Part shown: one piece after another, positions 16,222 through 36,742 of the stretch | Layout: every line of letters starts with the position of its first letter | Position numbering within the stretch: position 1 is the stretch's first letter | NCBI GenBank assembly: GCA_016841745.1 | Contig: JAENYO010000001.1 | Location: 246,799-310,798 of the forward strand | From: Acetomicrobium hydrogeniformans | GTDB lineage: Bacteria; Synergistota; Synergistia; Synergistales; JAFGMB01 | Length of the DNA stretch: 64,000 nucleotides | Reading direction: 5' to 3' | Notes under the pieces: generated by a model | Databases searched by the model: none | Told to the model about the DNA's origin: nothing | The model's input: only the letters and a program-made list of their open reading frames with translations | Position numbers and translations under genes: made by a program

Positions 16222-16501
16222 AAATTCACATCCCGTCCAGGCTCATGGTATAAAAAATAACCTCTTTAGTAAACATATCCCAAGGAACAATATCTTCATT
16301 GAACCTCCTGAGAAAGTATTTAGCCTTACCAGCAACCTGGCTCAGAAAAGTTCTCTCTTAATCCTGGAAACATCGAAATATGTCCGCAAGGGAAGACAAT
16401 TGCCCAATAAAAAAATTCCCTCCCATTATTTTGGAAAGGAATTTGAAAAACTCCATAAATGTCATTTTACTAGTTATTCTGTAAGGCCTTTTCAACATTC
16501 T
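16222..16501. other. Intergenic left flank of the element, with a relic hairpin
   Basis: No gene. At 16407-16444 an imperfect hairpin (ATTCC.../GGAAT) begins with a 17-base stretch, 16407-16423, identical to 36435-36451 just upstream of the integrase at the other end of the element. This may be a relic of the same tRNA-terminator/integrase leader, left by an earlier insertion or carried by homologous exchange. Confidence 0.5.
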
Positions 16502-16557
16502 AACTCGTGACCTGCGGTTCCGTAGACCGCCGCTCTATCCAGCTGAGCTACCGGCGC
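16502..16557 (-). pseudogene. Truncated tRNA-Arg(ACG) copy
   Basis: The first 56 of 77 nucleotides of the intact tRNA-Arg at 36561-36637. The 3' part, including most of the T arm and the acceptor strand with CCA, is replaced by unrelated sequence, so it cannot fold. Confidence 0.9.
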
Positions 16558-16567
16558 ACCTTAAAAA

Positions 16568-16649
16568 TGGCGGTGGGTGAGGGATTCGAACCCTCGAGGG
16601 AGGTTTGTGCCCCCCTACTCGCTTAGCAGGCGAGCGCCTTCGACCGGCT
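16568..16649 (-). pseudogene. Truncated tRNA-Ser(GCT) copy
   Basis: Matches the intact tRNA-Ser at 36648-36742 except that the first 13 nucleotides (5' acceptor strand and part of the D arm) are missing and replaced by element sequence. The promoter found upstream of the right-hand copy is also absent, so it should be silent. Confidence 0.9.
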
Positions 16650-16792: not shown

Positions 16793-17488
16793 TTATAATC
16801 CCGTATAAATTTCCTGCAAGCTCCTCAATAATTCAACGAGTTTAAAGACGGTAGTTGAAGGATTAGTGCAAGGATCCGGATAATAAGAATATAACAGTTG
16901 AGCATTTCTAATGGCATCATCCATCTTTTTTTCTAAATATGAATATATTTGGGAATCGTTTTTCTTATACTTGAAACCCAAGAACTTGGATAATTTTCCA
17001 CAATACTGAGACCTTGATAAACCACTATGTAAAAATGAAAAATGCAACAAATACCAGAGCTCAAAAGCTTCGTTAGAATGTGCTATTTTGATATTTAATT
17101 CCCTTGCCATCTTATGATTAATCATGGAAAAAGCAGCATTAAAGTGTTCTTTAGGAAAACTATCTCTGTCAAAAACACACCAGATTTCATCATATGACTC
17201 ATTATTTTGTGCTGCTTCTTTCCCCATAGAAACAGCTTTAGCAACAATTTGCTTAGTATTTATCCCAAGACCCTCGATATCGACAGTGTGAATAGAAGAA
17301 ACCTCAAAAGAATCAAAATATTGTGGCTCAGTTTTTGTCCCTTCGCATAATATTAAAATACGTTTTCTTTCATTAAGTTTCCCGACAGGTCTCTGATAAG
17401 ATTTCGCAGTACGTTTTCGTCCATCACATATTTCCTTTTTACGTTTGTTTTCCTTTTTTCGATCGTTCGACATCAATCTTATTCTCAC
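16793..17488 (-). CDS. RloB-like protein (AbiLii-type), TOPRIM-like
   Basis: About 231 residues matching RloB proteins. ILILCEGTKTEPQYFDSF (44-61) carries the metal-binding Glu49, and DEIWCVFDRDSF has D108 and D110, together a TOPRIM-like acidic set; SNEAFELWYLLHF is a further family block. The start is GTG at 17488, overlapping the rloA stop as GTGA; an ATG 15 bases on is possible. RloA/RloB pairs correspond to the abortive-infection system AbiL. The likely role is the effector nuclease or regulator partner of the ATPase; which of the two is toxic is not established here. Last gene on this side of the element. Confidence 0.85.
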   Translation of the reverse strand: MRIRLMSNDRKKENKRKKEICDGRKRTAKSYQRPVGKLNERKRILILCEGTKTEPQYFDSFEVSSIHTVDIEGLGINTKQIVAKAVSMGKEAAQNNESYDEIWCVFDRDSFPKEHFNAAFSMINHKMARELNIKIAHSNEAFELWYLLHFSFLHSGLSRSQYCGKLSKFLGFKYKKNDSQIYSYLEKKMDDAIRNAQLLYSYYPDPCTNPSTTVFKLVELLRSLQEIYTGL

Positions 17489-18849
17489 TTATCAGAAGAA
17501 GTTTCTTCAAGAAGCTTTTTTTCTAATTCCATTAACTCTTGATATTCACTTTCTTCCTGTTTTCGATTTGAAAAGATATCACGATATTTGATATTAGGAA
17601 TGCCTCCATATCTACCTGATAGATAATCTTTTTCAATAATTCGATCCTGGCGTGGTTTATAAGCAAGGAGAGGAATTAGTCGGGAAGAAGCATACCGATC
17701 TTTTTCCACAAACCAGATCTGATCTCTCCTTAATTCTTTTTTGTTCAAAGGTTTTGTATTTTGGGTTGAAAAGATTAATTGAGCATTATTCGGATTTGTC
17801 TTTTTAGAGTTGAACAATTTTAGAATAAAACTTATCAATAAACTATGAAATCTTGAATCAAGTTCGTCAATAACAAGAACTGACCCATTTCTTATTGCAT
17901 TAAGTATGGGTCCGAGTATAGCAAAATACTTCTGGGTCCCATCTGACTCTTGAGTCGTTAGATTAAATTCAATAAAGTCAACCTTTTCCCCTTTATCATT
18001 GAAAATAGGGTGAGAAAACTCAACAACTGAGGAGGCTTCTATATCTATATCAGACTTTTTAGCAAATTCTTCGAACTTCTCTCGTGCTTTCTTCGGTAAA
18101 TCTTTAAGTGATTCTTGAATAGATCTAACGTTAAAGCTTTCTATATTTAAATCAGCAACTTGCAAATATTTCACAATAATGTCTTTAAGGGAAGGATTCT
18201 TTTGGAGCATATCTAAAATTACATAACGATAGTCTTCATCATCTATTCCAGAAATAAAAAGGCTCTGTTGAAACCACTTTAGAACTTCTTTCCCCACTAA
18301 ATTATTCCATTGCGACGCAACGGAAATAAATAAGGCATTATCTCGAGTTTTGTCGATAAGATCTCTGGCATTTTTCATTTGTGGACCAAGTTGGAAAGCT
18401 TGAAATTCCCTAATAAATAATTTTGCTTCTCTACTACTTGTTGATTTGAATAACCATTCTCTATGAATTTTTTTCCCATCGACTTCAAAACCATATCGAT
18501 ATTGTGCTTGATTTTTCAAGAAAGTAACTTCAAAACAAGAAGGATTATGGCGAGTTTCAGCGTTTAGCAAGAAAGGTGTTACAGGAATAAGTTCATCTGA
18601 CTGAGATTCTTTTGCAGAATTAAGGACTAATGATCTCATGAAAGCAAATGCAAGAAGCATATTTGTTTTTCCACTAGCATTGGCACCCAATAAAGCAGCA
18701 CATGTTAGAATACGATTTGCAATTCCCTTCTTAATATCATGTTTAATAGTGTGACTCTCTTCTAATTCCTTTGCATGTGAAGCTACCATACTGAGTCTTG
18801 TTTCATCTTTAAACGAAAGAAAGTTTTTAAAATTAAACTCAATTAACAC
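17485..18849 (-). CDS. RloA-like AAA15/ABC-type ATPase (AbiLi-type)
   Basis: A 454-residue SMC/ABC-like ATPase of the AAA15 group. Walker A is GANASGKT at 55-62, the signature-like ESDGTQKY at 301-308 and Walker B VLVIDELD at 324-331, followed by the His-containing D-loop/H-loop region SRFHSLL and STQNT. The N-terminus IEFNFKNFLSFKDETRLSM is typical of the family. With RloB it forms an operon, joined by a GTGA overlap. The pair is expected to act as an anti-phage abortive-infection unit; the trigger is unknown. Confidence 0.88.
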   Translation of the reverse strand: MLIEFNFKNFLSFKDETRLSMVASHAKELEESHTIKHDIKKGIANRILTCAALLGANASGKTNMLLAFAFMRSLVLNSAKESQSDELIPVTPFLLNAETRHNPSCFEVTFLKNQAQYRYGFEVDGKKIHREWLFKSTSSREAKLFIREFQAFQLGPQMKNARDLIDKTRDNALFISVASQWNNLVGKEVLKWFQQSLFISGIDDEDYRYVILDMLQKNPSLKDIIVKYLQVADLNIESFNVRSIQESLKDLPKKAREKFEEFAKKSDIDIEASSVVEFSHPIFNDKGEKVDFIEFNLTTQESDGTQKYFAILGPILNAIRNGSVLVIDELDSRFHSLLISFILKLFNSKKTNPNNAQLIFSTQNTKPLNKKELRRDQIWFVEKDRYASSRLIPLLAYKPRQDRIIEKDYLSGRYGGIPNIKYRDIFSNRKQEESEYQELMELEKKLLEETSSDK

Positions 18850-18988: not shown

Positions 18989-21900
18989 CTATCCCACCCC
19001 TACAAAATCAGCATTAGCATTTACCTGATCCAACAAATTCACAATCTCAGTCGCCTCTGCAGGTTCGAATACACCATCGAGCCCTTCAAAGTGAATAGCG
19101 GTAAAAGGCTGCTCATAAAGAAGCCCTGGGTCCATAGTTCCTTTACTGGTCAAATAATCAATTATCTTTTCTATGAAACGGATTTGACTGGTATTGAAAC
19201 TGGTCTCGTCCATATACTTCGAAAACAGCTTAATGGCTGCTTCTCTATCTAGCCCGACAAGAGACCTGATGAAGACTGGCAATTTCTGTTTTCCATAAGC
19301 CTTCTCAAACAGCTCTTTACTCTGGGCTTCACCGGATTCAAAGAGGAATCTTTCCAGTTCAGACAGGTCAGTGGGCGTAAGAGGAAGATTATGTTTAAGC
19401 TTTTGGATAGCCACGTGATCCTGGTTCGACCTGATAAAATACTCCACCTTTTTCTTGTATTGCTTTATATTGATCCCGGTTTGAAAGGAGCCTACCTGCA
19501 CTTCTTCCTCTTCTCTGATCTCGTCCTGCAAAACCGTATAGACAGGCTCACTTCTCCTCTTTTCGATGAATTGAATGAGATCACGCAGCTTCTTTCTCAG
19601 ATTCTCTATTATGGGAAGTGTTATATCCTGCCAGTATTCGTCCGTCTGAACATCCAGAATCAGGTCCATTTGAGCTTTTACCATGGGGATGGTCTCTTTG
19701 TATTCCAGGTCGGAAGCCATCTCCTGAACCTTTTGTTTCAACCTCTCAAAGGAGACAGATTTCTCCATCAGGGCAAGCTGCAATTTGAGGCAGGTCAGGT
19801 CAAAGAGTTTAGCTGTTATATCTTCTGCCTCCTGTTCAGTGGGAAGTCCTGCTATGTAATGATAAAGCTCGCTCAGTTTCTCCATGTCAAGATTATTCCA
19901 GGCTTCTCTGTTCTGGAATCGATCAACATATCTTCGTTTTACCCTGACAATGAAATTATCCACGTTCATTGCAGATACTTCCCTATACAGAAGATCAATG
20001 GTTTCCAGGCGCAACTGTTCAAGTGGATCATCTTCTTCTGAATTACCAGAAGCTAGTGTTCCCATATTAGAAGGACCCTCCACAAAGATGTTCTGGATAG
20101 TCTCTATCAGTTGGAGTCGATACTTGAATATTTTCTTGGACAGAGGTTCTGCCTCAATGCCCTTGACTCCTTCAGGGTTTTCCCCGAAATACTCCATGTT
20201 TCCGCAGTAATCAAAGACATAGAAAAACGTCTTATCCTCATCCGGTCCAAATAGGTCTTCACAAAGCCGGGTCCCTCTCCCTATCATCTGGAGAAATTTC
20301 GTTCTGGACCTTACTATCTTGAAAAAGACAAGGTTCACCACTTCTGGAACATCTATGCCCGTATCAAGCATGTCTACAGATATGGCTATCTGTGGATATT
20401 TCTCTACGGAACTGAAGTCATCGAGGATGCTCTGGGCATATGTCTCATAGTTATCTATAACCCTTGCAAAATGTCCTTTAAGATGGGGATAGTGGATGTT
20501 AAAGCGTTTCTGGATAAACAGGGCATGTTCATGGTTCTTGGCAAAGATAATGGTTTTGCCCAGCTTGTCTCCACCTTCTACCTTCTGTCCCTTCTCCATA
20601 AGATGTTTCAACACCTTATCCACAGTATCCTCATTGAAGAGCCATTTATTCACTTCATTGGCACCTACAGAATCGGGGGCTCCATTTTCGAAGCGATCTC
20701 CCCAGTCGAGGCTTTCCCAATGGTCCTTTTCATCCTCGCTCAACTCGTCGTAATGGATACCTTCTCTGACAAACTTAAGAGGTACCGATACCGCTTTAGG
20801 TGGAACCAGGAAGCCATCTGCCACCGCATCTTCAAGCCCATAAGCGTCTGTGGGTATTCCTGTTTCCAGGTCGAATAAATGATAAGTGTCATGGTGCACT
20901 TCATCCCTCGGAGTAGCCGTAAGTCCAACCAGCAGTGAGTCAAAGTATTCGAAAATAGCACCATATTTCTGATAGACACTTCTATGGGCTTCATCTATAA
21001 CCACCAGGTCGAAATATCCCACGCCAAACCTTCTCTGGTCTCCTTTCATCCCATCTATAAGCCCCATCATGGTGGGATAGGTGGAAACATACACCCTTCC
21101 CTGGGAATCCTTTTCAGTAACTAGATTGACAGGGCTCGATTCAGGTAAGTGAGCCTTAAAGGCATTCACCGCCTGATTCACAAGGGCTACTCTATCTGCA
21201 AGGAACAGAACCCGTTTCACCCAGTTACACCTCATAAGAACATCCACAAGGGCAATGACTGTCCTTGTCTTTCCAGTACCTGTAGCCATCGCTAACAATC
21301 CCTTGCGCTGTCCCTTCATGAATTCCTCACTTAAGGATTCCATGACTCTTTTCTGGTAATAGCGATCCACTATGTTTTCTTTAACCTTCTGTCCATGCAA
21401 ATCTTTTCTTATACTTCTTCTCTCTATAAGTAGCTGAAGTTCATCTTTAGAATAGAAGCCCTGAATTAACCTCGGGGGATAGAACTTGTCGTCCCATATC
21501 CATGTCTCATATCCATTGGTGTAAAAGATGATGGGACGTCGACCTTTCACTTTCTCCAGACAATCGGCATATAGTTTTGCCTGCTGTTGCCCTACATGGG
21601 GATCAATGGTAGTTCTTTTCGCTTCTACTACTGCCAAAGGCAGTCCATCCTGTCCCCAGAGAACATAATCAACAAATCCTTCACCCTTGACATTGGGCAT
21701 CCCTGTAACAGGAAACTCCTCCGATACATCTTTACCTATGACCCAGCCTACTTCCTTGAGAAGAAGATCTATTATGAGCTTTCGTGTTTCATGTTCAGAA
21801 TAGTCATGATCATCCGGTATCTGGAGATTCTTCGCCTTTGCTACTGCCAGCTCTTCCCTTACCCGTACCAACTCTGCATTTAGTTCTTGCAATCTGGCTT

Positions 21901-22483
21901 CACGTTCCTCCAGCGTCATTGCTTGAGAAGAAAGGATAGCTTCCTGTTCCTGAAGTTGTCTATTCCTTTCTTCCCACTTCTGTTCCTGTTCAACTTCTAA
22001 CTGTTGAAGGGTTTCAATGGTTGAAGAATAAGCTGCTGGTTCTGCCTGGGCGGGTAGATCTGCATTGAAGGTAATATCCAGTTCTTGTGGGTTGCTTTGA
22101 CGAATATATGTTCTTGCAAGCCAATATAGAAAATGGAAAAGCTCCCTGCATATTTTTAGAGAGTCATGCTGCTGGAAAGGTCGTTGTGAATGGGCTGCCT
22201 GGTTTCCTGCCTTCTGAATAGCTCTCACCTTGTAAAAGAGCTGACTTGGGAGCAGATCCTTGAAGGTTGGCTCATGGATCATGGCTCCCAGCTTATTCTG
22301 ATAAGGTCTCCTCAGGGTTCTGTCATGGTCATAAAGCCAGTGAACGGCAAGTTCCAAGGTGAGCCTGGCATAGAAACAGCTTCCTCTGGGATCTGAATAA
22401 GCAAGATCCTCTACCCGTTTGGAATTGATAAAGAGCTCCTCAAATTCATCCTTCAAAAATGCAAAGTTGCTCATAGCGGTCAC
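18989..22483 (-). CDS. hsdR: Type I restriction enzyme R subunit
   Basis: A 1164-residue translocase-endonuclease. Order of parts: an N-terminal DUF4145-like helical region (about 1-135), a coiled coil rich in Gln/Glu (155-215), the nuclease core with VDYVLWG (D272) and E287-A-K289 in VVEAKR, Walker A ATGTGKT (400-406), DEAH (497-500), then helicase motifs including GLTATPRDEVH and RSRTKFLQMIGRGTRL, and a helical C-terminus for HsdM binding. All key motifs are intact, so cleavage should be active. GTG start overlaps the hsdS stop (GTGA); an ATG three codons on is an alternative. Third gene of hsdM-hsdS-hsdR. Confidence 0.95.
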   Translation of the reverse strand: MTAMSNFAFLKDEFEELFINSKRVEDLAYSDPRGSCFYARLTLELAVHWLYDHDRTLRRPYQNKLGAMIHEPTFKDLLPSQLFYKVRAIQKAGNQAAHSQRPFQQHDSLKICRELFHFLYWLARTYIRQSNPQELDITFNADLPAQAEPAAYSSTIETLQQLEVEQEQKWEERNRQLQEQEAILSSQAMTLEEREARLQELNAELVRVREELAVAKAKNLQIPDDHDYSEHETRKLIIDLLLKEVGWVIGKDVSEEFPVTGMPNVKGEGFVDYVLWGQDGLPLAVVEAKRTTIDPHVGQQQAKLYADCLEKVKGRRPIIFYTNGYETWIWDDKFYPPRLIQGFYSKDELQLLIERRSIRKDLHGQKVKENIVDRYYQKRVMESLSEEFMKGQRKGLLAMATGTGKTRTVIALVDVLMRCNWVKRVLFLADRVALVNQAVNAFKAHLPESSPVNLVTEKDSQGRVYVSTYPTMMGLIDGMKGDQRRFGVGYFDLVVIDEAHRSVYQKYGAIFEYFDSLLVGLTATPRDEVHHDTYHLFDLETGIPTDAYGLEDAVADGFLVPPKAVSVPLKFVREGIHYDELSEDEKDHWESLDWGDRFENGAPDSVGANEVNKWLFNEDTVDKVLKHLMEKGQKVEGGDKLGKTIIFAKNHEHALFIQKRFNIHYPHLKGHFARVIDNYETYAQSILDDFSSVEKYPQIAISVDMLDTGIDVPEVVNLVFFKIVRSRTKFLQMIGRGTRLCEDLFGPDEDKTFFYVFDYCGNMEYFGENPEGVKGIEAEPLSKKIFKYRLQLIETIQNIFVEGPSNMGTLASGNSEEDDPLEQLRLETIDLLYREVSAMNVDNFIVRVKRRYVDRFQNREAWNNLDMEKLSELYHYIAGLPTEQEAEDITAKLFDLTCLKLQLALMEKSVSFERLKQKVQEMASDLEYKETIPMVKAQMDLILDVQTDEYWQDITLPIIENLRKKLRDLIQFIEKRRSEPVYTVLQDEIREEEEVQVGSFQTGINIKQYKKKVEYFIRSNQDHVAIQKLKHNLPLTPTDLSELERFLFESGEAQSKELFEKAYGKQKLPVFIRSLVGLDREAAIKLFSKYMDETSFNTSQIRFIEKIIDYLTSKGTMDPGLLYEQPFTAIHFEGLDGVFEPAEATEIVNLLDQVNANADFVGVG

Positions 22484-23661
22484 AACTCCCCGTTAAATGC
22501 TCTTTGTTGGAGGGAAGAGAAAAGGGTATTAATTCGTTCAAGACTTGCCTGAAAATCTGATTTTTCTATTTTTAAACAATCATAGAATTTCGAAAACCTT
22601 AACTGCTCTTCTATCGGTGGAATATAAAGTTTAATCTTTACCATACGTGTTAAACCGAGATCTTTATTTGCGATACCATGGGTATATCGTTGTGACTGGA
22701 CGTAACAATAGTTTGTATTCAACATTGCCTCAAGCCATTTGGGATCAACTTTATTTTTTCTAAGTTTTAATAATGCAACATGGACCCATACAGCTATCGG
22801 TTGATCAAAATCTATATGGGTAGCAATACCTGTCGTCCCACCTTTAGAGTAAAGAATATCACCCTTCACGGGCTTGCACTTCTTCCAATGCTGTTCTGCT
22901 TCTTCAAGATCAATGAACTTTAAATCTTCCCAAATTACCTCTCCGAGGCTGATATTCCTTGTAGAAAGAAACGGAATTCCATTTTCCGAATATGATGGGC
23001 TGACATGAGGTCCATCTTTTGCTGAATAAATCACTTCACCCAGGACTCCAAAATCCCACCCCTTTGGATTCGTCACAGGATCCCCGAACATATCCAGAAA
23101 AACAGACTGAAGCAGTTCATCCAGTTTGGCAATTGCCTGCTGGCGTTTTTGACGGAGGGCATCAGCTTTGTCAAGAATGGTAGCTATGCGTTTCTGTTCT
23201 TCCAGCGGGGGAAGGGGGATTTCAAAAGACTCTAGCTGCTTTGGGCTTATGTTAACTTGAGCAACACCTACCGCCATTTGAGAAATTTTTCTTTGAAATA
23301 ACTCAGACATTAAGTAATGGTGTAAGAAATCTCGGTTGATTTTTGTATCATCTAATATCTCAAATCTCGCAATACGTTGGTTTAAATAAACCGGCTCTGT
23401 AATATGTAAGGGCATAATCCCTATTTTCCCTATACTACCGGAAAGACCCATAAGAATATCATCAGGGAAGACTTGATATTTCTGTTTACCTTCTACTTTT
23501 GTTAGAGGTATCCGAATGGCTCCTTTAATATCTACAGTCCCCCCACCAATATTGCACATTCTAATCACGGGACATCCTTTATCACTAAAGTCCTTAGATT
23601 TAAAAGCAAAACCACCAATTACCCTTACATACTCTTCAAGAAAGTGCCTGGAAACAATCAC
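22480..23661 (-). CDS. hsdS: Type I restriction-modification specificity subunit
   Basis: A 393-residue DNA-recognition subunit with two target-recognition domains separated by conserved helices. The first TRD covers roughly 1-150 and ends with PLPPLEEQKRIATILDKADALRQKR (the coiled spacer). The second starts near NPKGWDFGVLGEVIYSAKDGP and ends IPPIEEQLRFSKFYDCLK. The recognition sequence cannot be read from the protein. It is joined to hsdM and hsdR by GTGA overlaps, so stoichiometry is set by coupling. Confidence 0.94.
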   Translation of the reverse strand: MIVSRHFLEEYVRVIGGFAFKSKDFSDKGCPVIRMCNIGGGTVDIKGAIRIPLTKVEGKQKYQVFPDDILMGLSGSIGKIGIMPLHITEPVYLNQRIARFEILDDTKINRDFLHHYLMSELFQRKISQMAVGVAQVNISPKQLESFEIPLPPLEEQKRIATILDKADALRQKRQQAIAKLDELLQSVFLDMFGDPVTNPKGWDFGVLGEVIYSAKDGPHVSPSYSENGIPFLSTRNISLGEVIWEDLKFIDLEEAEQHWKKCKPVKGDILYSKGGTTGIATHIDFDQPIAVWVHVALLKLRKNKVDPKWLEAMLNTNYCYVQSQRYTHGIANKDLGLTRMVKIKLYIPPIEEQLRFSKFYDCLKIEKSDFQASLERINTLFSSLQQRAFNGEL

Positions 23662-25142
23662 TTCAACATATCCTCCAGCTCAGTAAGTCCTGCCTGGATC
23701 TCTGATTCAAGATCTTTCAAATCAATCAGGATCTTGTGGGGAGAATCATATTCAACTTCCTCATATACTATCTCCTTATATCTGTTGATGGAAAGGTCAT
23801 AACCGTTCTCAGCAATTTCTCCTTTGGGTACAAAGAAAGATTGATCAGTTCGTTTCCTTACATCCTCTTCTTGCAGATTTTTCCAGCGAGAAATTATATC
23901 TGCAATGTTGTTGTTTCCATGCTTCCCATCGTTGAGAGGGGTACGTTTATCATCCAGGGAGTAACCATCTGCCTGCATGTCATAGAACCATACCTTGTCT
24001 GTCCCACCAGAGTTGGTCTTAGTGAAAACCAGCACCGCCGTGGAAACCCCTGCATAGGGCTTGAACACTCCAGAAGGCATTGAGATGACAGCATCCACCT
24101 TCTGATCTTCCACAAGAATCTTACGTAACCCCTTATGAGCTTTTGAAGAACCGAACAACACACCATCGGGAACAATAACTGCAGCTCTTCCACCTGGCTT
24201 TAGGAGTCTGAGGAAAAGGGTAAGGAACAACAATTCTGTCTTTTTGGTCTTAACAACTTTGAGCAGATCCTTGGAGCAGCTTTCATAATCGAGGGAACCT
24301 GCAAAGGGGGGGTTAGCAAGGATAAGAGTATACTGTTCCTCTATTCCTGCATGGTCTTCTGAAAGAGAGTCCCTGTTCTGAATGTCCGGGTTCTCGATTC
24401 CATGCAGAAGCATATTCATGGAACCTATCCTCAACATAGTGCTGTCAAAATCGAAACCGTTGAATGTGTCATGGTTAAATCGTCGCATAGCTTCTGGATC
24501 GGTAAATATCTCCGGGTGATTATTTCGCAAGTACTCTGAAGCAGCTACCAGGAATCCGGCAGTTCCACAGGCAGGATCACAGATAATATCCGTGGGTTTG
24601 GGAGCAACAAGCTCCACCATCATCTTGATGATATGACGAGGAGTTCGAAATTGACCATTCTGACCAGCTGTAGCTATCTTTCCAAGCATATATTCATAAA
24701 GGTCACCCTTAGTATCACGATCATCCATGGGTATCTCATCGAGCATATCCACTACTTTTGCCAGTAATGCTGGGTTAGGTATTGTAAACCGTGCATCCTT
24801 CATGTGCTTTGTGTAGGTAGATTTTTCCCCATTGCCGAGATTTTTTATGAAGGGGAATACCTTTTCACTAACCACTTTGTACATATCTTCAGGAGATCCA
24901 AGGGATTTGAACTTTGACCATCTTAATTCTTGTTCTTCAGGGTTGAAGATAGGCTTTTCTATCGGTCGGTTTAAGCGATGAGCTCTGCTTTCCCTGGCAG
25001 TATGAAGTTCATCAAGCCTCTTAATGAAAAGAAGATAGGTCATCTGCTCGATGACCTCCATGGGATTTGCAATACCTCCAGCCCAAAACGCATTCCATAC
25101 CCGGTTAATTTGATTTTGAATTTCTCCAGTGATCAAGTACAT
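23658..25142 (-). CDS. hsdM: Type I restriction-modification N6-adenine methyltransferase
   Basis: A 494-residue methyltransferase. N-terminal HsdM_N helical domain (about 8-135), SAM-binding motif DPACGTAGF (189-197) and the catalytic NPPF (277-280) with ILANPPFAGSLDY, typical of m6A enzymes. SD GGAGGTAG stands directly before the ATG. First gene of the operon, which matches the usual need to modify host DNA before HsdR appears. It is preceded by a promoter-like sequence at 25209-25238. Confidence 0.95.
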   Translation of the reverse strand: MYLITGEIQNQINRVWNAFWAGGIANPMEVIEQMTYLLFIKRLDELHTARESRAHRLNRPIEKPIFNPEEQELRWSKFKSLGSPEDMYKVVSEKVFPFIKNLGNGEKSTYTKHMKDARFTIPNPALLAKVVDMLDEIPMDDRDTKGDLYEYMLGKIATAGQNGQFRTPRHIIKMMVELVAPKPTDIICDPACGTAGFLVAASEYLRNNHPEIFTDPEAMRRFNHDTFNGFDFDSTMLRIGSMNMLLHGIENPDIQNRDSLSEDHAGIEEQYTLILANPPFAGSLDYESCSKDLLKVVKTKKTELLFLTLFLRLLKPGGRAAVIVPDGVLFGSSKAHKGLRKILVEDQKVDAVISMPSGVFKPYAGVSTAVLVFTKTNSGGTDKVWFYDMQADGYSLDDKRTPLNDGKHGNNNIADIISRWKNLQEEDVRKRTDQSFFVPKGEIAENGYDLSINRYKEIVYEEVEYDSPHKILIDLKDLESEIQAGLTELEDMLK

Positions 25143-25395: not shown

Positions 25396-26601
25396 CTATC
25401 CCAACTTTGACATTCTCCAGAATCTAGACTTGCAAGCATTGCTACAGTATTTTGTCGGTTTTCCTTTTATATTCCGGATAAAAGGAACCCCACAAGGACA
25501 AAATCCAATGTCAGTAACATTTTCGCCCCAAACCCAAAGAAGAAGTGCCGCTTCTAAATAACTCGAAGGTTGATAAAAAATACCTATCCAACTTGTTTCT
25601 CCCTTGGGTGGTTCAAACCCCAGTCCTTCAAGTCTTTTTTCACTTTCTCTTCTTGAATGATCTGAAACGAGTTTTCCTAAAGATGAAAGTTTGTAATTTC
25701 CTAAAGATGAAAGTCTAAAGATAGAATGCCTTGCTCTTGATAATGTGACATTCAGCCATTCGTCAATTTCTTCCATTACAAGTCCAGGAAGATTCTCTTT
25801 TTGTTTATATTTTTGCATCAAAGCAGCGGAAAAAAGCTTGTTTGGAAAATACAATTCTTCGTGTTGAGTTGTATGCTGAGTTTCTTCCTGTGTTTCATTG
25901 GGAGATTCTGCTTCTAGGACCTCTGCTGAATTTTGTTTTGATTTATGTTTAACTGGTGGAATTTGCCTCTCACACAGATAATATATTTTCTGGGAAATAT
26001 CAGCATTCACAGAATCCAAATCTGGAAGAAATGAAAACCATGGAGAAAAAGGGTCCTCTTCTCTTGGATAGAATGCTGTCTTATAAAAGAATGGATCAAG
26101 AAAACAATTCATCGTTGTTGGGAAAATGTTGTTTTCTGAACCTTTTGCTCCAGAATTGGCTATAGGCTCAACTACTTTGGGAACAGGCACTTTAATCAGC
26201 TCATTTTGTAAGGTCTCAAGATCTCTTCGTTGAGCCGATTTATAAAGCTTAAAGATTCTATAGATAGACTTGGCAGAGTCTTCGAAAGAATCTGATTCCA
26301 AGTCAATAAACTGTACACCCCGAAAATCTATTCCTTTATCAATTTTCTTCGAATAATTTTCATAAAAGAAATCTCTTACCTCAGGAACAGTTTGGCTTTC
26401 TCTATTCTCCTCATATTCCCCACTAGCAACAGATTTTCCAGGGGGAACTAGTTTCCCTATTTCGAGTCTTTCTCCTGCTCTAACTAATAGTGGAAGGAAA
26501 AAAGGATGAATAGATCGGTGGTTTTTTACTGATCTTCCTGTTCTTGAAATACATTGCCCAACTTGAACAATTGTTTTCTCCCTCTTTAAGGTAAAGCTCA
26601 T
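25396..26601 (-). CDS. Unknown protein with a C-terminal zinc-finger-like motif
   Basis: I do not recognise the 401-residue protein. It appears soluble, with a charged, Glu/Gln-rich middle (about 215-255) and a C-terminal Cys cluster FCPCGVPF...YCSNACKSRFWR (last about 38 residues), which resembles a CGNR-type or treble-clef zinc finger and would suit nucleic-acid binding. An in-frame 24-bp duplication repeats LSSLG (about residues 300-315). It is divergent from the Xre-like regulator at 26718, so the two may share a control region; in phage-like elements such a pair often flanks the lysogeny switch. Function is not assigned. Confidence 0.65.
   Translation of the reverse strand: MSFTLKREKTIVQVGQCISRTGRSVKNHRSIHPFFLPLLVRAGERLEIGKLVPPGKSVASGEYEENRESQTVPEVRDFFYENYSKKIDKGIDFRGVQFIDLESDSFEDSAKSIYRIFKLYKSAQRRDLETLQNELIKVPVPKVVEPIANSGAKGSENNIFPTTMNCFLDPFFYKTAFYPREEDPFSPWFSFLPDLDSVNADISQKIYYLCERQIPPVKHKSKQNSAEVLEAESPNETQEETQHTTQHEELYFPNKLFSAALMQKYKQKENLPGLVMEEIDEWLNVTLSRARHSIFRLSSLGNYKLSSLGKLVSDHSRRESEKRLEGLGFEPPKGETSWIGIFYQPSSYLEAALLLWVWGENVTDIGFCPCGVPFIRNIKGKPTKYCSNACKSRFWRMSKLG
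25673..25714. repeat. In-frame 18-bp direct repeat (24-bp period) within the zinc-finger gene
   Basis: TTTCCTAAAGATGAAAGT occurs at 25673-25690 and again at 25697-25714. The 24-bp offset equals eight codons and duplicates the LSSLG-containing peptide, so the reading frame survives. Confidence 0.85.
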
Positions 26602-29757: not shown

Positions 29758-29829
29758 GGGTTCCTAGCATCATCAACTCCCTTAAAGCTAGTCAGATATT
29801 TATCAAGGAGTTGATGATGCTAGGAACCC
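29758..29829. repeat. 23-bp perfect inverted repeat with 26-bp spacer
   Basis: The arm 29758-29780 (GGGTTCCTAGCATCATCAAC, then TCC) is matched without error by its complement at 29807-29829. It begins 5 bp after the Zn-ribbon gene's stop codon. No T-run follows either arm, so it is not a standard terminator. It could be a replication terminus, recombination site, single-strand origin or stable RNA. Confidence 0.9.
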
Positions 29830-30579: not shown

Positions 30580-31350
30580 TTATTCTAAAAATGCAATAAT
30601 CGCTTTACAACATTGGCGACAAGAATTGTACCTTCCTACTCTAGACAAACTCTGACGTAACTTCTCCATTTCAATTGTCCTCTCAATAAGTCTCGCTACA
30701 GAAAGACACCACTCCTTAAAATCACCAACCTGATTGTAATGGAGAGTATTGGGAGTACAGTGAATGAAGTTATTTCTTACCTCTCTTATCTTTTCCAAAA
30801 CTTCAAATTCCTTATTGCTCACTTGAAGTGGTGGATTGATAAAATTAATGTCACGACATTTTTCTAAGATTTTATTAAATGGAAGGATCTGTTCATGGAA
30901 TAAAAGATAGTTTTTTTGATCATCTAAAGACAAATTTTTCCAGTCGGGGATTTTATTAATGAAATCTTCGATATCTCCTAACTCTTCAAGAATTACATCT
31001 TCAATATCATCTTCTGTCATCTCACCATTTACAAAGCTCAACTTGTATTCTTCTTCCAGTTGAGCTTTGTAATCTTCATATTCCATTTCTTTCATTTCTT
31101 GAATAAAAGAAATATATGAAGGTGTATATTCCCCTCGTTTTTTGATTATTGGACATTTATATACATGAAATATCTTATATCCCGACAACAAGCATACACA
31201 CATAGAGTATAGAGAATGATATAAGGAAATAATTACAAATTGCCACATGTATTTTGCTCTAGGGCATAAAGTAACTAATGTAAGAGTCATTTCTAAGTAA
31301 TCACTTCCGATAGATTGAAGGTCTGTCGAAACATAATCTTTTTCACTCAA
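30580..31350 (-). CDS. HEPN-like protein (RX4H motif), candidate RNase
   Basis: About 256 residues from a TTG at 31350, chosen because AGGTGG lies 6 bases upstream; an earlier TTG at 31368 has a poorer SD. The pattern AKYMWQFVIISLYHSLY (helix 1) and VRNNFIHC, with R192 and H197 of an R-x4-H motif, fits HEPN-fold proteins, many of which are RNases in defence or toxin-antitoxin loci. The C-terminus has CRQCC. Third gene after the SIR2 and 972-aa genes, with a gap of about 30 bp, so probably the same transcript. Whether it is an effector or an immunity-type partner is unknown. Confidence 0.65.
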   Translation of the reverse strand: MSEKDYVSTDLQSIGSDYLEMTLTLVTLCPRAKYMWQFVIISLYHSLYSMCVCLLSGYKIFHVYKCPIIKKRGEYTPSYISFIQEMKEMEYEDYKAQLEEEYKLSFVNGEMTEDDIEDVILEELGDIEDFINKIPDWKNLSLDDQKNYLLFHEQILPFNKILEKCRDINFINPPLQVSNKEFEVLEKIREVRNNFIHCTPNTLHYNQVGDFKEWCLSVARLIERTIEMEKLRQSLSRVGRYNSCRQCCKAIIAFLE

Positions 31351-31381
31351 GGCAATCCACCTATTCAAGGAATAAACCTAA

Positions 31382-34300
31382 TTATTCCAGTATTTTTTTG
31401 ATCAAGCGATAGTGGAAATCTCGTAAATCCAATTCTCCTTTTCCGCCTAAACCATTGACAACCCTATTAAGAGCCAATAGATCTTCTTTTTCTTGTGCTA
31501 AACTGCATAATTTTTCTATCATGTCTTTCAAAACATCTCGATAGTAAATCAAGTTTGAAGGATCTTCGTCATAACAAACGATATTCTCAACGATATGAAT
31601 AACCTTAGAAAAGAACTTCGGAAGATTTTTATTCATAACTGATAGAACCTGTTTGGGTCTCTCAATTAGTTGAATATCGCTTGTAATGTTAAAAAGCAGA
31701 TTGATTGACCATTCATAATTAAATTTTTCTGAAGCAAACCATTTCCCGAAAAGGGATAACTCTCTTATCATTGTCTTAGGTTTATTCTGATATCTAAAAA
31801 TCGATAGTCTTTCCTTAATAAGTGTTTGTAATCTTTTTTTTACGTCTTCCGGCATCTCTTCTTTAATTCGTTTTAAACTTCTTCCAACAAAATCCATTGC
31901 ATAATCCCTGTATCTTTGATCATATTCTCCAAAAAAGATTTCATGATGCAGGCACATGGATCTTTCATCAAAGGTACCCCACCAATACAACATCAATATA
32001 TGTTCGATAAGCCTTTTTTCAACATTTGATAATTCCTCATTTCCTCCTTGATCTCTGATTGACTGGCAATATCTCAAGGTCTCCCAATACACAAATTCAA
32101 GGAAAGGAAATATGGAAAAACTAGGCGAATTCGTTTGCAAATATGAATCAAATATAGCTTGACGATGTCCTTCAAACCCTTCAGATAACTGGATAATTGA
32201 CATTATGCTCTTAAATAATTCTCGATCTACTCGGAATAAAAAATCGAAATATTCTCCATATACAGAATGGACAATTACAGAGGGTTCATTAGCTAAATCT
32301 AATCTCTGTTCAAGGAATTCCTTTGTTTCAGCAGGAATCAAAAATTGTTCTTCATCTCTGTTCTCGTATAACCAAGAAATATAGATCAATACGCAGCGCA
32401 TAGCTATTCCCCTAACGGTATTTAGAGAGAGAGTCAAAGAATCGCTAGGATATTTTCCCAATAAATCCTCCTTTTCTGAAGACACAGAAGGAGATTCTTT
32501 GTCTTCAGACAATCGAATAAGGATATTCCATATGTCATCTTTAAAACCAAGTGGAATTAAATTCTCCTTCCTATCAAATAAATTCTCAATCAACCTTGCT
32601 ATCTCAATATAAGTTAGTGACTTCGACGAAGCACCTGGATATTCTCTCAGCGTCGGATCTTCGTCAAAATATTCATTTTCTTTATCTAGAATCGACTTGA
32701 TGAACGAAAAAAGTTTATGCCAATTCATGATTTTCTGATCTCCTGCTTCGGATAAGCCACGGAGTATTCCTCTAAGATAAAAGGGTTTCAACTCGGAAAA
32801 AAGGAGAAGGTCAGGGATTACGAATTCCCCTTGCTTAAACACATTTGTTAGAGTCCTCTCTAACCCTTCATATGAAGAACTCAGCAGTTCGTCGCTAGGT
32901 TTCCAATTCTCTATATATTTTTTAAGTCCTTCAGTATCCATGCTCATTAGCTCTTTAACGGTCTTAGGGCTTTTATATCCCCAATGGGGACCACTTGTGA
33001 AAACCGGGAAATCAACATGCTTGTTCTCACCAAATTTTGCAACCACATTTGTATAAATTTCATCCCATGGCTCTGCCAGGAAAGAAGATATTGGAGATAG
33101 ATACTTATATCTCCACCTTTCAAATTTTTCTTTAGATTCATTACAATCAAAGTCCTCTTTTGGAAAATGCAACATATGCCACTCCTGGCTGAAGTTTGAA
33201 TCAGCAAAATATCCTAAATACTGCTTCTGCGTAGTTTTAGAAAAGTTTTTGAAGTGATTTCTGAGAAGATAAAAATATTCATGCCTTAAAGACACATCGT
33301 TTAATATGTTTTGCTTTAACACTAATTTTTCAGTACTTGGTTGCATAAGATCTAAGAATTGAGACCTCAAATAAATTCCAATTCTTTGAAATATTTTATA
33401 TGGTCTTTCTTCAAGTTCAGTTATAACCCTTGGATCATGTGTTTCTTGCAATATCTCTGTAGCTAAATCCCTGATGCTAGCAGCAAGCAAGCTTTTTTTG
33501 TCACTTGTATCCCTATTCTGCTCATGATCTTCAACTGCGGGTCGCCACAAATTTGAGTAATCGTAAATGGAATGTTTACTTTCTGTATTTTTAGTCTCAA
33601 GACAAATGTAATTGATCAGAGTATTGCAAAGGAGATCAAGTGTTTTCTTGGGCTGTCTAACAAATAAATCTGAGCAAATCGGACCCTTTACAATTGTTTC
33701 AAAATGCCAATAATCCAAATTGCGCATACGCGCACTACTCTCTTGGGATGAATTCAATAGGTCATTTGTAAGTGTGTACGCTTCATAATAAAAATTGTTT
33801 TTTGAAAGCTTGGATATCAGTTGCCCTAATTGGTCCATCATGATTGGATAATTCCCGACACTAATCCATTCACAAATTCTACTTGATAACTTCTTCGTAT
33901 TTGTAGGGTTAGTCACCAATGCAATCTCAATGTAATCCTGAAGAATCCAGATATTATCGTTCCTAGGTATTACATTTTCCATTATTTCAACAACTTTATT
34001 TTCATCATCTTGAACCATATTTCGAAGGAGAATACTAGTAAGACTCCATCGTGGTATTATCCAAGTATCCTTTTCTTTAGCAGGAATTTTTTGGGGAATT
34101 TTTTTAAACTCTTCATTTTCACAAAAAAAATCTAACCACTTAGGATTATGTGTTTTAGATATCTCTTCATAAAAATAAGCGATTGATACATCTTCGAGAA
34201 GAAGTGGTTTTAGTTCCGTGGAATAATCAGAATTCCCTGGACCTTTTCTAATAATGTTGTCAAATCGGTCAAGCCGTTCAAAAAAAAGAAGATTTTTCAT
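31382..34300 (-). CDS. 972-residue helical protein partnered with a SIR2 enzyme
   Basis: No enzymatic motif could be found: no Walker A, no nuclease or protease signature. The sequence is uniformly alpha-helical with alternating hydrophobic/charged segments, as in HEAT/TPR-like solenoids; W, Y and F are frequent. It starts 10 bp after the SIR2 stop, so the two are coupled. Large helical partners of SIR2 NADases act as sensors of phage proteins in known systems, where they are often fused to the SIR2 domain; here the parts are separate. Resemblance to the DUF4020 type of SIR2-associated domain is possible but unchecked. The region is clearly A+T-rich. Confidence 0.7.
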   Translation of the reverse strand: MKNLLFFERLDRFDNIIRKGPGNSDYSTELKPLLLEDVSIAYFYEEISKTHNPKWLDFFCENEEFKKIPQKIPAKEKDTWIIPRWSLTSILLRNMVQDDENKVVEIMENVIPRNDNIWILQDYIEIALVTNPTNTKKLSSRICEWISVGNYPIMMDQLGQLISKLSKNNFYYEAYTLTNDLLNSSQESSARMRNLDYWHFETIVKGPICSDLFVRQPKKTLDLLCNTLINYICLETKNTESKHSIYDYSNLWRPAVEDHEQNRDTSDKKSLLAASIRDLATEILQETHDPRVITELEERPYKIFQRIGIYLRSQFLDLMQPSTEKLVLKQNILNDVSLRHEYFYLLRNHFKNFSKTTQKQYLGYFADSNFSQEWHMLHFPKEDFDCNESKEKFERWRYKYLSPISSFLAEPWDEIYTNVVAKFGENKHVDFPVFTSGPHWGYKSPKTVKELMSMDTEGLKKYIENWKPSDELLSSSYEGLERTLTNVFKQGEFVIPDLLLFSELKPFYLRGILRGLSEAGDQKIMNWHKLFSFIKSILDKENEYFDEDPTLREYPGASSKSLTYIEIARLIENLFDRKENLIPLGFKDDIWNILIRLSEDKESPSVSSEKEDLLGKYPSDSLTLSLNTVRGIAMRCVLIYISWLYENRDEEQFLIPAETKEFLEQRLDLANEPSVIVHSVYGEYFDFLFRVDRELFKSIMSIIQLSEGFEGHRQAIFDSYLQTNSPSFSIFPFLEFVYWETLRYCQSIRDQGGNEELSNVEKRLIEHILMLYWWGTFDERSMCLHHEIFFGEYDQRYRDYAMDFVGRSLKRIKEEMPEDVKKRLQTLIKERLSIFRYQNKPKTMIRELSLFGKWFASEKFNYEWSINLLFNITSDIQLIERPKQVLSVMNKNLPKFFSKVIHIVENIVCYDEDPSNLIYYRDVLKDMIEKLCSLAQEKEDLLALNRVVNGLGGKGELDLRDFHYRLIKKILE

Positions 34301-34310
34301 CTCAACAACC

Positions 34311-35378
34311 TCATCTTTTTACAAAAGGATCTAGTTTTCCCACAGGCGAAACAGTATCTAACAAATTCTGGACCTGTTTTAGAATTCTTGAAATATCAGC
34401 AAAATCCTCAACTCTAATCGTGCGAACTCCCAATTCCAAGAATATCTTATTCTCCTCTTCTTCTTGTGCATAATCTCTTTTCGAAGGACTCCCCTCAAGA
34501 ACAGTACGTTTTGTTCTAAGAATAATATACTTGGGTGGAAGTTCCCAGTTTGGATGCCTCGTTTGCAATGTCTTGAATATTTCCGACATCTTCTGGAAAA
34601 TTTTCTGAATCGGGTCTTCGCTAAGGCTATAACCAATAAATATAATTGAATTCAACTTCAACAATTCATTCAAAAAAGAGTCAACAATAAAGGAATATGT
34701 TGGTTCACTAAAATCCCTTGATGTAAAAACCAGGTTTTTTGCTGAAGGATGAGGAGAAGTGTCTGCTGGGAAAATATAGCCATGCATATAGAAAAGAGGC
34801 AAACGTACCCCTATTTCTCTCCAATCACCAATATCTTTGGAAACATAGTTAGGATAATCGTTAATCGAATATTTAATCGGATTTCCCCCAAAATGTCGAC
34901 TCACAGCTTTAGCTAATAAGGGATCAAAATTCGTTGTTAGAAACCCAGCTATAGGAAGATGCAATAAAAGAGTAATCTCTTCAGGAATACAAGCAGGGTC
35001 TTTGCTAAAAAGATCGATTAACGTTTCTTCATATTTATCTAAGTTTACATTTTTGCATTCATGTGCTTTCCCCAAAAGAACACAAGACGTAGCTGTTTCT
35101 CCACTTTCAATTGGAGGTACACCACATTTTTCACACAGTTCCTGAACTGTCTGTTTCCAATCAAGATATTGAGCTTGCTTTGATACCCCAGAACCTATCC
35201 AGATATAGGTTCCAGATTGAGCTAGTAATACATTTTTAAGTTCGGAAGCTACAGATGAAATATTTTGACTCAACACAAAAGAACCCCTATCCCAACGCAA
35301 ATATTGACTGATTGAACTGTAGAAAAACATATCCGAATAATTTTGTATTATCTTTTTAATAATATCATTATTAAACAA
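34311..35378 (-). CDS. SIR2-family protein, candidate defence NADase
   Basis: A 355-residue SIR2_2-type protein. IGSGVS (61-66) is the NAD phosphate loop, TTNFDPLL has N150 and D152, YMHG has the catalytic-position H199, and FIGYSLSED (247-255) closes the site, so the catalytic residues look intact. No Cys-pair zinc module typical of deacetylases is seen. SIR2 domains of this type in defence islands deplete NAD+ after phage sensing. First gene of a three-gene operon in a mobile element full of defence genes, supporting that role. Confidence 0.85.
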   Translation of the reverse strand: MFNNDIIKKIIQNYSDMFFYSSISQYLRWDRGSFVLSQNISSVASELKNVLLAQSGTYIWIGSGVSKQAQYLDWKQTVQELCEKCGVPPIESGETATSCVLLGKAHECKNVNLDKYEETLIDLFSKDPACIPEEITLLLHLPIAGFLTTNFDPLLAKAVSRHFGGNPIKYSINDYPNYVSKDIGDWREIGVRLPLFYMHGYIFPADTSPHPSAKNLVFTSRDFSEPTYSFIVDSFLNELLKLNSIIFIGYSLSEDPIQKIFQKMSEIFKTLQTRHPNWELPPKYIILRTKRTVLEGSPSKRDYAQEEEENKIFLELGVRTIRVEDFADISRILKQVQNLLDTVSPVGKLDPFVKR

Positions 35379-35494: not shown

Positions 35495-36436
35495 TCATTT
35501 TTCAAACCTTCTCTTTCTATCTTTGCTATCAGAGATAACCGACAAGGGTGTTCCTATGCTATGTTGTTGCCTCACATCCCCTTCAACTAAATGGACATAT
35601 CTTTCTGTCATCTGCATAGTTGAGTGTCCCATGATCCTCTGTAGTGCAAGAGCATTCCCACCGTTTCTCAAAAACAGGGTGGCAAAGGAATGACGAAGCA
35701 TATAAGGGGTTACCTTTGATGGGAGTTTCCTGCTGTATTTATTCAGCCTTTTTCCCCACCAATCTCCGGACATTTTAGTTCCTTCAAAAGTAGAAAACAC
35801 TGGAATATCCTTTCTCCAATTGGGGTGTCTTGCTACTAATAGCTTCTTGATAACCTTCACTGTTGTAGGGCTCAGAGGGAGGGTTCTGGATGTTCGGGTC
35901 TTTGCTATTGGCGCTGGAACCCTTACTTCCAGACTAGATAGGGTAAAGTCCGCCTCTTGTAAAGATAGGGCTTCTCCGGGGCGTATACCCGTATCCAGTG
36001 TAAAGATTATAAGGGCATAATCCCGATATCCTGCAAAGGTCTTTTTATCAGGCAAGCATAAGAGCTTTTTCAGGACCTCAGCATCAACCTCAACAAACTT
36101 TCCAGGGTTCTTCCTTTTCTTCAATCCTTGTGTGGGATCTGAAGGGAATATTCCCTCCTCCATTCCCCATGAGAAAAATACACGAAGATTTGAAAGTCTT
36201 AGGTTGTGTGTAGTAGGTGTTTGAGCTGATGCAATGAAGGAAAGGACAGAGGAACGGGTCTTGAGGGTTGTTGAGTAGGCTTCAGGATAAAGCTTGAAGA
36301 AATGGGAAATGATCTTCCTGTAATCTTTAACGGTTCTGTCAGCCTTCCCTAAAGCTCTCTGAAGGTTCAAGAAATCCCGCAATGCTTCTTGGAAATCTGG
36401 TCTCTGCCACCTTTTCATTTCCACTACTTTAGCCAT
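35495..36436 (-). CDS. int: Tyrosine recombinase (element integrase)
   Basis: A 313-residue phage/XerC-type integrase. An N-terminal SAM-like DNA-binding domain (about 15-100, FLNLQRALGKADRTVKDY) precedes the catalytic domain with R152 (DTGIRPGEAL), K179, Y245-x2-R248 (PYMLRHSFAT, Tyr in place of the usual His), H271 (IMGHSTMQMTERY) and nucleophile Y280. It lies about 125 bp from the intact tRNA-Arg, as expected for an integrase next to its att site. Its start codon follows a terminator hairpin whose 3' arm contains the SD (GGAGGGAA), which may limit its translation on read-through transcripts. Confidence 0.95.
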   Translation of the reverse strand: MAKVVEMKRWQRPDFQEALRDFLNLQRALGKADRTVKDYRKIISHFFKLYPEAYSTTLKTRSSVLSFIASAQTPTTHNLRLSNLRVFFSWGMEEGIFPSDPTQGLKKRKNPGKFVEVDAEVLKKLLCLPDKKTFAGYRDYALIIFTLDTGIRPGEALSLQEADFTLSSLEVRVPAPIAKTRTSRTLPLSPTTVKVIKKLLVARHPNWRKDIPVFSTFEGTKMSGDWWGKRLNKYSRKLPSKVTPYMLRHSFATLFLRNGGNALALQRIMGHSTMQMTERYVHLVEGDVRQQHSIGTPLSVISDSKDRKRRFEK

Positions 36437-36560: not shown

Positions 36561-36637
36561 TGGCGCGCCGGACAAGATTCGAACTCGTGACCTGCGGTTC
36601 CGTAGACCGCCGCTCTATCCAGCTGAGCTACCGGCGC
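36561..36637 (-). tRNA. tRNA-Arg (anticodon ACG)
   Basis: A 77-nt cloverleaf: acceptor GCGCCGG pairing with CCGGCGC, TAGCTCAG D-arm start, anticodon stem GCGGT/ACCGC with loop CTACGGA, TTCGAATC T loop, discriminator G and encoded CCA. The 3' 21 nucleotides lie outside the 148-bp repeat, so the element appears to restore or supply this end. Confidence 0.97.
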
Positions 36638-36729
36638 ACCTTAAAAATGGCGGTGGGTGAGGGATTCGAACCCTCGAGGGAGGTTTGTGCCCCCCTACTC
36701 GCTTAGCAGGCGAGCGCCTTCGACCGGCT
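36582..36729. repeat. Right boundary repeat of the element (148 bp, attR side)
   Basis: Identical in sequence and orientation to 16502-16649. It starts within the T arm of tRNA-Arg and ends in the D loop of tRNA-Ser. Both tRNAs are complete on this side. Confidence 0.95.
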
Positions 36730-36742
36730 CGGCCAACCCACC
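36648..36742 (-). tRNA. tRNA-Ser (anticodon GCT)
   Basis: A 95-nt class II tRNA: acceptor GGTGGGT/ACCCACC, anticodon loop within CTCGCCTGCTAAGCGAG, a long variable arm (GGGGGGCACAAACCTCCC), TTCGAATC T loop, discriminator G and encoded CCA. It lies 10 bp upstream of tRNA-Arg, and both share a promoter. Confidence 0.97.

Follow-up and report, generated by a model that had tools for sequence, protein, structure and literature searches.

DSR1 has been described as one protein, a single polypeptide in which a SIR2 effector is joined to a large helical C-terminal region, and it is represented by the PADLOC Dsr1 model and by the NCBIfam equivalog NF041818. DSR2, also one protein, combines SIR2 with a helical sensor in the same way. 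In DSR2, the helical C-terminal domain is by itself able to bind the phage tail tube protein. Isolated SIR2 is an inactive monomer, its pocket opens once the trigger is bound, and mutating N133/H171 abolishes the NADase activity (PMC10973363). The C-terminal regions of DSR1 and DSR2 show limited homology (PMC10973363). Inhibition of phage replication by DSR1 without cell death is credited to Garb et al. (2022) in the statement of PMC10952713 that cites their work. Here, we examined a 64,000-nucleotide stretch of Acetomicrobium hydrogeniformans DNA (the window), in which two adjacent reverse-strand genes, encoding a SIR2 protein (34311–35378) and a helical protein (31382–34300), very probably constitute a two-gene DSR1-like defence-associated sirtuin. 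The layout is new, and the kind of system is already known.

The SIR2 gene starts at TTG and encodes a 355-aa NADase-like putative effector that matches PF13289 (SIR2_2, E 3.1e-13) and the PADLOC ThsA SIR2 model (E 1.1e-17). Across 16 homologues, G62, G64 and S66 of the GxGxS motif, N150 and H199 are invariant; N150 and H199 are the counterparts of N133 and H171 in DSR2, which we count as support for a DSR1-like identity. The adjacent gene, which lies in another reading frame and starts at ATG, encodes a 972-aa protein with no match in Pfam or to the NCBIfam Dsr1 equivalog. Its residues 42–840 align to positions 325–1105 of the PADLOC Dsr1 model PDLC04166 (length 1227 positions; E 2.8e-34), collinearly over about 800 residues, while the N-terminal part of the same model, positions 27–210, matches the SIR2 protein (E 7.7e-5). 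Side by side, the two proteins thus rebuild the DSR1 layout. PDLC04166 is matched by 44 of 45 sensors of the family to which the helical protein belongs, and 31 of 43 resemble the NCBIfam Dsr1 equivalog (best 6.3e-17). The SIR2 protein scores 11.7 against the equivalog cut-off of 1400. Because the match falls so far below this cut-off, the pair is, as judged by profile comparison, a remote DSR1-like lineage in a distant clade rather than DSR1 proper.

The AlphaFold2 model of the helical protein is a confidently predicted all-alpha solenoid (pLDDT 84.6, pTM 0.72). Foldseek matched it to HEAT solenoids of the importin-beta, CAND1 and FANCI type (E near 1e-5, TM at most about 0.31), matches that for a predicted model give the fold class only; the solved DSR structures were not among these generic HEAT/importin hits. 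Sequence searches of solved structures, with the protein and its alignment as queries, returned no significant match. A near-invariant patch, W252-R253-x-A255-x-E257-x-H259-x-Q261-N262 together with R306, H340-E341 and N627, is a candidate functional surface. An earlier note on this DNA had described three tandem open reading frames, all of them confirmed here, and had proposed that a SIR2-family protein with intact NAD-site residues and a very large helical protein without an enzymatic motif belong to a defence module whose split layout, together with a HEPN partner, fitted no system that it could name. The pairing of a SIR2 effector with a large helical partner in a defence module holds up, and the split layout does differ from textbook DSR1.

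The division of labour in DSR2, in which the C-terminal region senses and the lone SIR2 is inactive, is what a split pair would lead one to expect. The pair resembles DSR2 in its SIR2 and helical sensor layout and, by analogy, probably in its trigger logic, although DSR2 is one protein, the window holds two, and the pair gave no match to the DSR2 profile. From DSR2 and DSR1 we infer complex formation, a phage trigger and NAD+ depletion: the solenoid protein would be the sensor, forming a complex with the SIR2 subunit and recognising a phage product, and trigger binding would switch on the SIR2 subunit, so that NAD+ is hydrolysed and phage replication stops. Fused forms, one from Ornithinibacillus (L062) and one from the same phylum as the window (L018), argue that the two halves act as one unit. 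The same fusions could be taken to mean that a single DSR1 gene was broken by a frameshift in the window. However, 32 other loci and a Vibrio plasmid also have SIR2 and sensor as adjacent but separate genes, mostly with start/stop overlaps of 1–44 bp, and in the window the genes lie exactly 10 bp apart, with an ATG opening the second. This conserved two-gene layout refutes the frameshift, to which we attach almost no probability.

Other SIR2-containing systems offer further comparisons. ThsA of Thoeris is the top match of the SIR2 domain in both PADLOC and PDB, which might suggest a ThsA-like dependence of the SIR2 protein on a small-molecule signal. Nevertheless, that match covers the SIR2 domain only: Pfam detects no SLOG domain in the window protein, no ThsB/TIR gene was found among the neighbouring genes scanned with Pfam and PADLOC, and the partner is a Dsr1-type protein. 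A ThsA-like mode of action is therefore very improbable. SIR2-HerA (Nezha) likewise has a SIR2 NADase as its own gene beside a large partner; there the partner is the HerA ATPase, whereas in the window it is an alpha-solenoid without a Pfam domain. The DSR1-like pair remains our preferred reading; its distance from the DSR1 equivalog, the long branch of its sensor on the tree described below and the lack of solved DSR structures among the fold matches count against it.

To place the sensor, 84,980 genomes were scanned once with a three-sequence sensor profile. The scan recovered 59 loci from many bacterial phyla and from Nitrososphaerota, counts that represent a sample rather than a census, since the peptide patterns used were taken from SIR2-linked sensors. 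In 33 independent loci the sensor is strictly paired with a SIR2 module immediately upstream of it; SIR2 is a gene of its own in 32 of them and is fused to the sensor in L062. A different helical module takes the place of SIR2 in 22 loci, fused in 14 and separate in eight, and carries conserved H-x2-R-[ED] and AH motifs. Its two subgroups are related to each other; four members of one match PF18165, "predicted pPIWI-associating nuclease" (best 1.8e-5), and in sequence the module weakly resembles that family. One further locus has a STAND NTPase as a separate gene (L077, nSTAND3 4.1e-8), and three are incomplete, L047 and L068 being cut by contig ends and L066 degraded. No complete locus among the 59 has two modules. 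The sensor half of DSR1 thus forms a family of its own, present in at least 59 genomes, that pairs with one of three upstream modules and never with two. PDLC04166 also matches the SIR2-less sensors L028, L020 and L043, so automated DSR1 calls may misjudge the effector, and annotation with this profile lumps SIR2 systems with SIR2-less copies.

The family also occurs on plasmids, as the two-gene pair of Vibrio, as one copy in Streptomyces and as further copies in haloarchaea; no sensor was found in the viral contigs scanned. In the haloarchaeal plasmid proteins L004, L005 and L007, an ATP-binding, STAND-like region, assigned by eye and from their annotation, is fused N-terminally to the same solenoid family, which extends the sensor family to archaea. 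In three loci the pair starts right after an HsdS gene (L051, 4156–6273, gap 0; L052, 4693–6924, gap 0; L056, 4264–6278, 4-bp overlap) and so seems nested in type I restriction-modification operons. Separately, L022 (913–10377; genome G095, same phylum as the window) encodes a fused SIR2-helical protein of 1274 aa, a canonical-type Dsr1 relative, flanked by an SNF2-type helicase gene and a gene judged by eye to be PglZ-like, an arrangement resembling a BREX/DISARM-like operon.

The history of the pairing was examined on a maximum-likelihood tree of 63 sensors obtained by a quick search. Module type changes seven times on this tree (minimum two), and the branches supported at 95 or higher require the SIR2 label to have changed five times or more. 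A single SIR2 origin, with all SIR2-linked sensors held together, was rejected (p-AU 0.001) in an AU test made once the groups were known. One large clade is SIR2-only; in the other, sensors linked to SIR2, to the helical module and to STAND are intermingled. The window sensor falls in this mixed clade on a long branch, its exact place being unsure. The restriction to one module per locus and the module changes on the tree indicate, on sequence evidence, that the helical protein serves as a common alpha-solenoid sensor whose N-terminal partners can be exchanged. Swapping of effector modules on one sensor in this way seems to be undescribed, and our literature search of open-licence papers found no split or effector-swapped DSR1. 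A separate sensor makes the division between sensing and effector function testable, by purifying the sensor alone, seeking its trigger and swapping modules.

Directly downstream of the pair, on the same strand, lies a HEPN-like gene (30580–31368, 262 aa). The likelier start is the TTG at 31350 behind AGGTGG, giving a 31-bp gap, and the first TTG would give 13 bp; the tandem spacing of 10 and about 30 bp reported earlier agrees with these measurements. The protein shares with the HEPN_Cthe2314 family (PF18730) an RX4H motif (R198-N-N-F-I-H203), also noticed earlier, and a weak profile match (6.3e-4), which is under the curated Pfam cut-off. Its structure model is of low confidence (pLDDT 58.9), and a fold search with it matched nothing. 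Searches of the 59 sensor loci, of 188 genomes from the window's phylum, and of plasmids and viral contigs found no homologue, and a phage search gave only a weak match (E 0.1). The sole clear distant relative is L091, a solitary gene for a 191-aa protein in candidate division LCP-89, with 31% identity in an alignment interrupted by a long gap; the RX4H motif is conserved there, and the window protein carries an insertion of about 95 residues by comparison. More distant members on two plasmids are likewise not beside SIR2 genes, and no conserved genomic partner emerges. Compared with the SIR2-replacing helical modules, the HEPN-like protein proved unrelated.

Whether this gene is a third component has to be weighed against what occupies the same position elsewhere. 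In L051 a HEPN_LA2681 gene (5.8e-75) directly follows the pair after a 2-bp gap, and in L059 a DUF4145 gene (4.5e-9) follows with a 4-bp overlap. DUF4145 has been classed as HEPN (PMC3710099), although the L059 site has no clear RX4-6H. Together with the tandem arrangement in the window, these neighbours would fit a system with a dual effector, in which the solenoid activates the SIR2 NADase against NAD+ and the HEPN RNase against RNA. Yet the HEPN-class genes of L051 and L059 belong to other families, other loci have a Fic, HNH, AAA or helicase gene in this position, and seven SIR2-linked loci of the window's clade (L024, L031, L035, L036, L042, L044 and L057) have no recognised HEPN gene there. 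A three-component system is accordingly unlikely. A broader proposal, in which the solenoid is a modular phage-sensing platform that has repeatedly swapped effectors in bacteria and archaea (SIR2 NADase, STAND NTPase or a helical module resembling a nuclease) and here drives SIR2 NADase and HEPN RNase together, is likewise unlikely.

Since two other loci have HEPN-class genes of unrelated families behind the pair, a cargo slot is the best interpretation of this position. The window gene is then probably cargo and no conserved component of the system; a functional connection with the pair has a minority probability. The HEPN-like gene likely codes for a regulator, or for a toxin or defence protein that works independently, and merely shares the transcript, as the solitary L091 relative, the plasmid members and the varied occupants of the slot suggest, even though its close spacing and orientation in the window would also suit a closer tie. 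The earlier note had put forward the trio as a candidate new defence system and had called for a count of its co-occurrence. The pair recurs in 32 other loci, the HEPN-like gene in none of the 59, and the pair matches the Dsr1 profile, so a new three-gene system is not supported; this is the outcome that the note itself had named as refuting its proposal. Of the idea of two effectors in one operon, what survives is that HEPN-class genes can follow the pair; the window's own gene is not conserved in that role.

The pair lies in a mobile element of 20 kb, bounded by 157-bp direct repeats (16493–16649 and 36573–36729) that a repeat search showed to be 99% identical. The latter repeat overlaps tRNA-Arg (36561–36637) and tRNA-Ser (36648–36742), both on the reverse strand and located by ARAGORN, which mark the integration site. 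A reverse-strand tyrosine integrase gene (35495–36436; PF00589, 1.5e-24) adjoins the SIR2 gene on one side and the two tRNA genes on the other. Two further defence systems are encoded on the same strand: AbiLii (16793–17488) with an AbiLi/AriA-like ATPase (17485–18849; PADLOC 2.3e-29 and 1.2e-94), and a type I restriction-modification system of HsdR, HsdS and HsdM (18989–25142), identified by the PADLOC models REase_I (2.7e-172), Specificity_I (8e-80) and MTase_I (8.2e-198). The defence-rich mobile element proposed earlier is thereby confirmed, and its two additional systems are counted as support for a defence role of the pair. Beside the type I genes, a 401-aa open reading frame (25396–26601) has no significant Pfam, PADLOC or NCBIfam match. 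Promoter and terminator scans gave results at chance level. Between a DnaB-like gene and the HEPN-like gene, the non-coding DNA contains an inverted repeat (29758–29829) whose 23-bp arms match perfectly around a loop of 26 nt, a possible origin or terminator.
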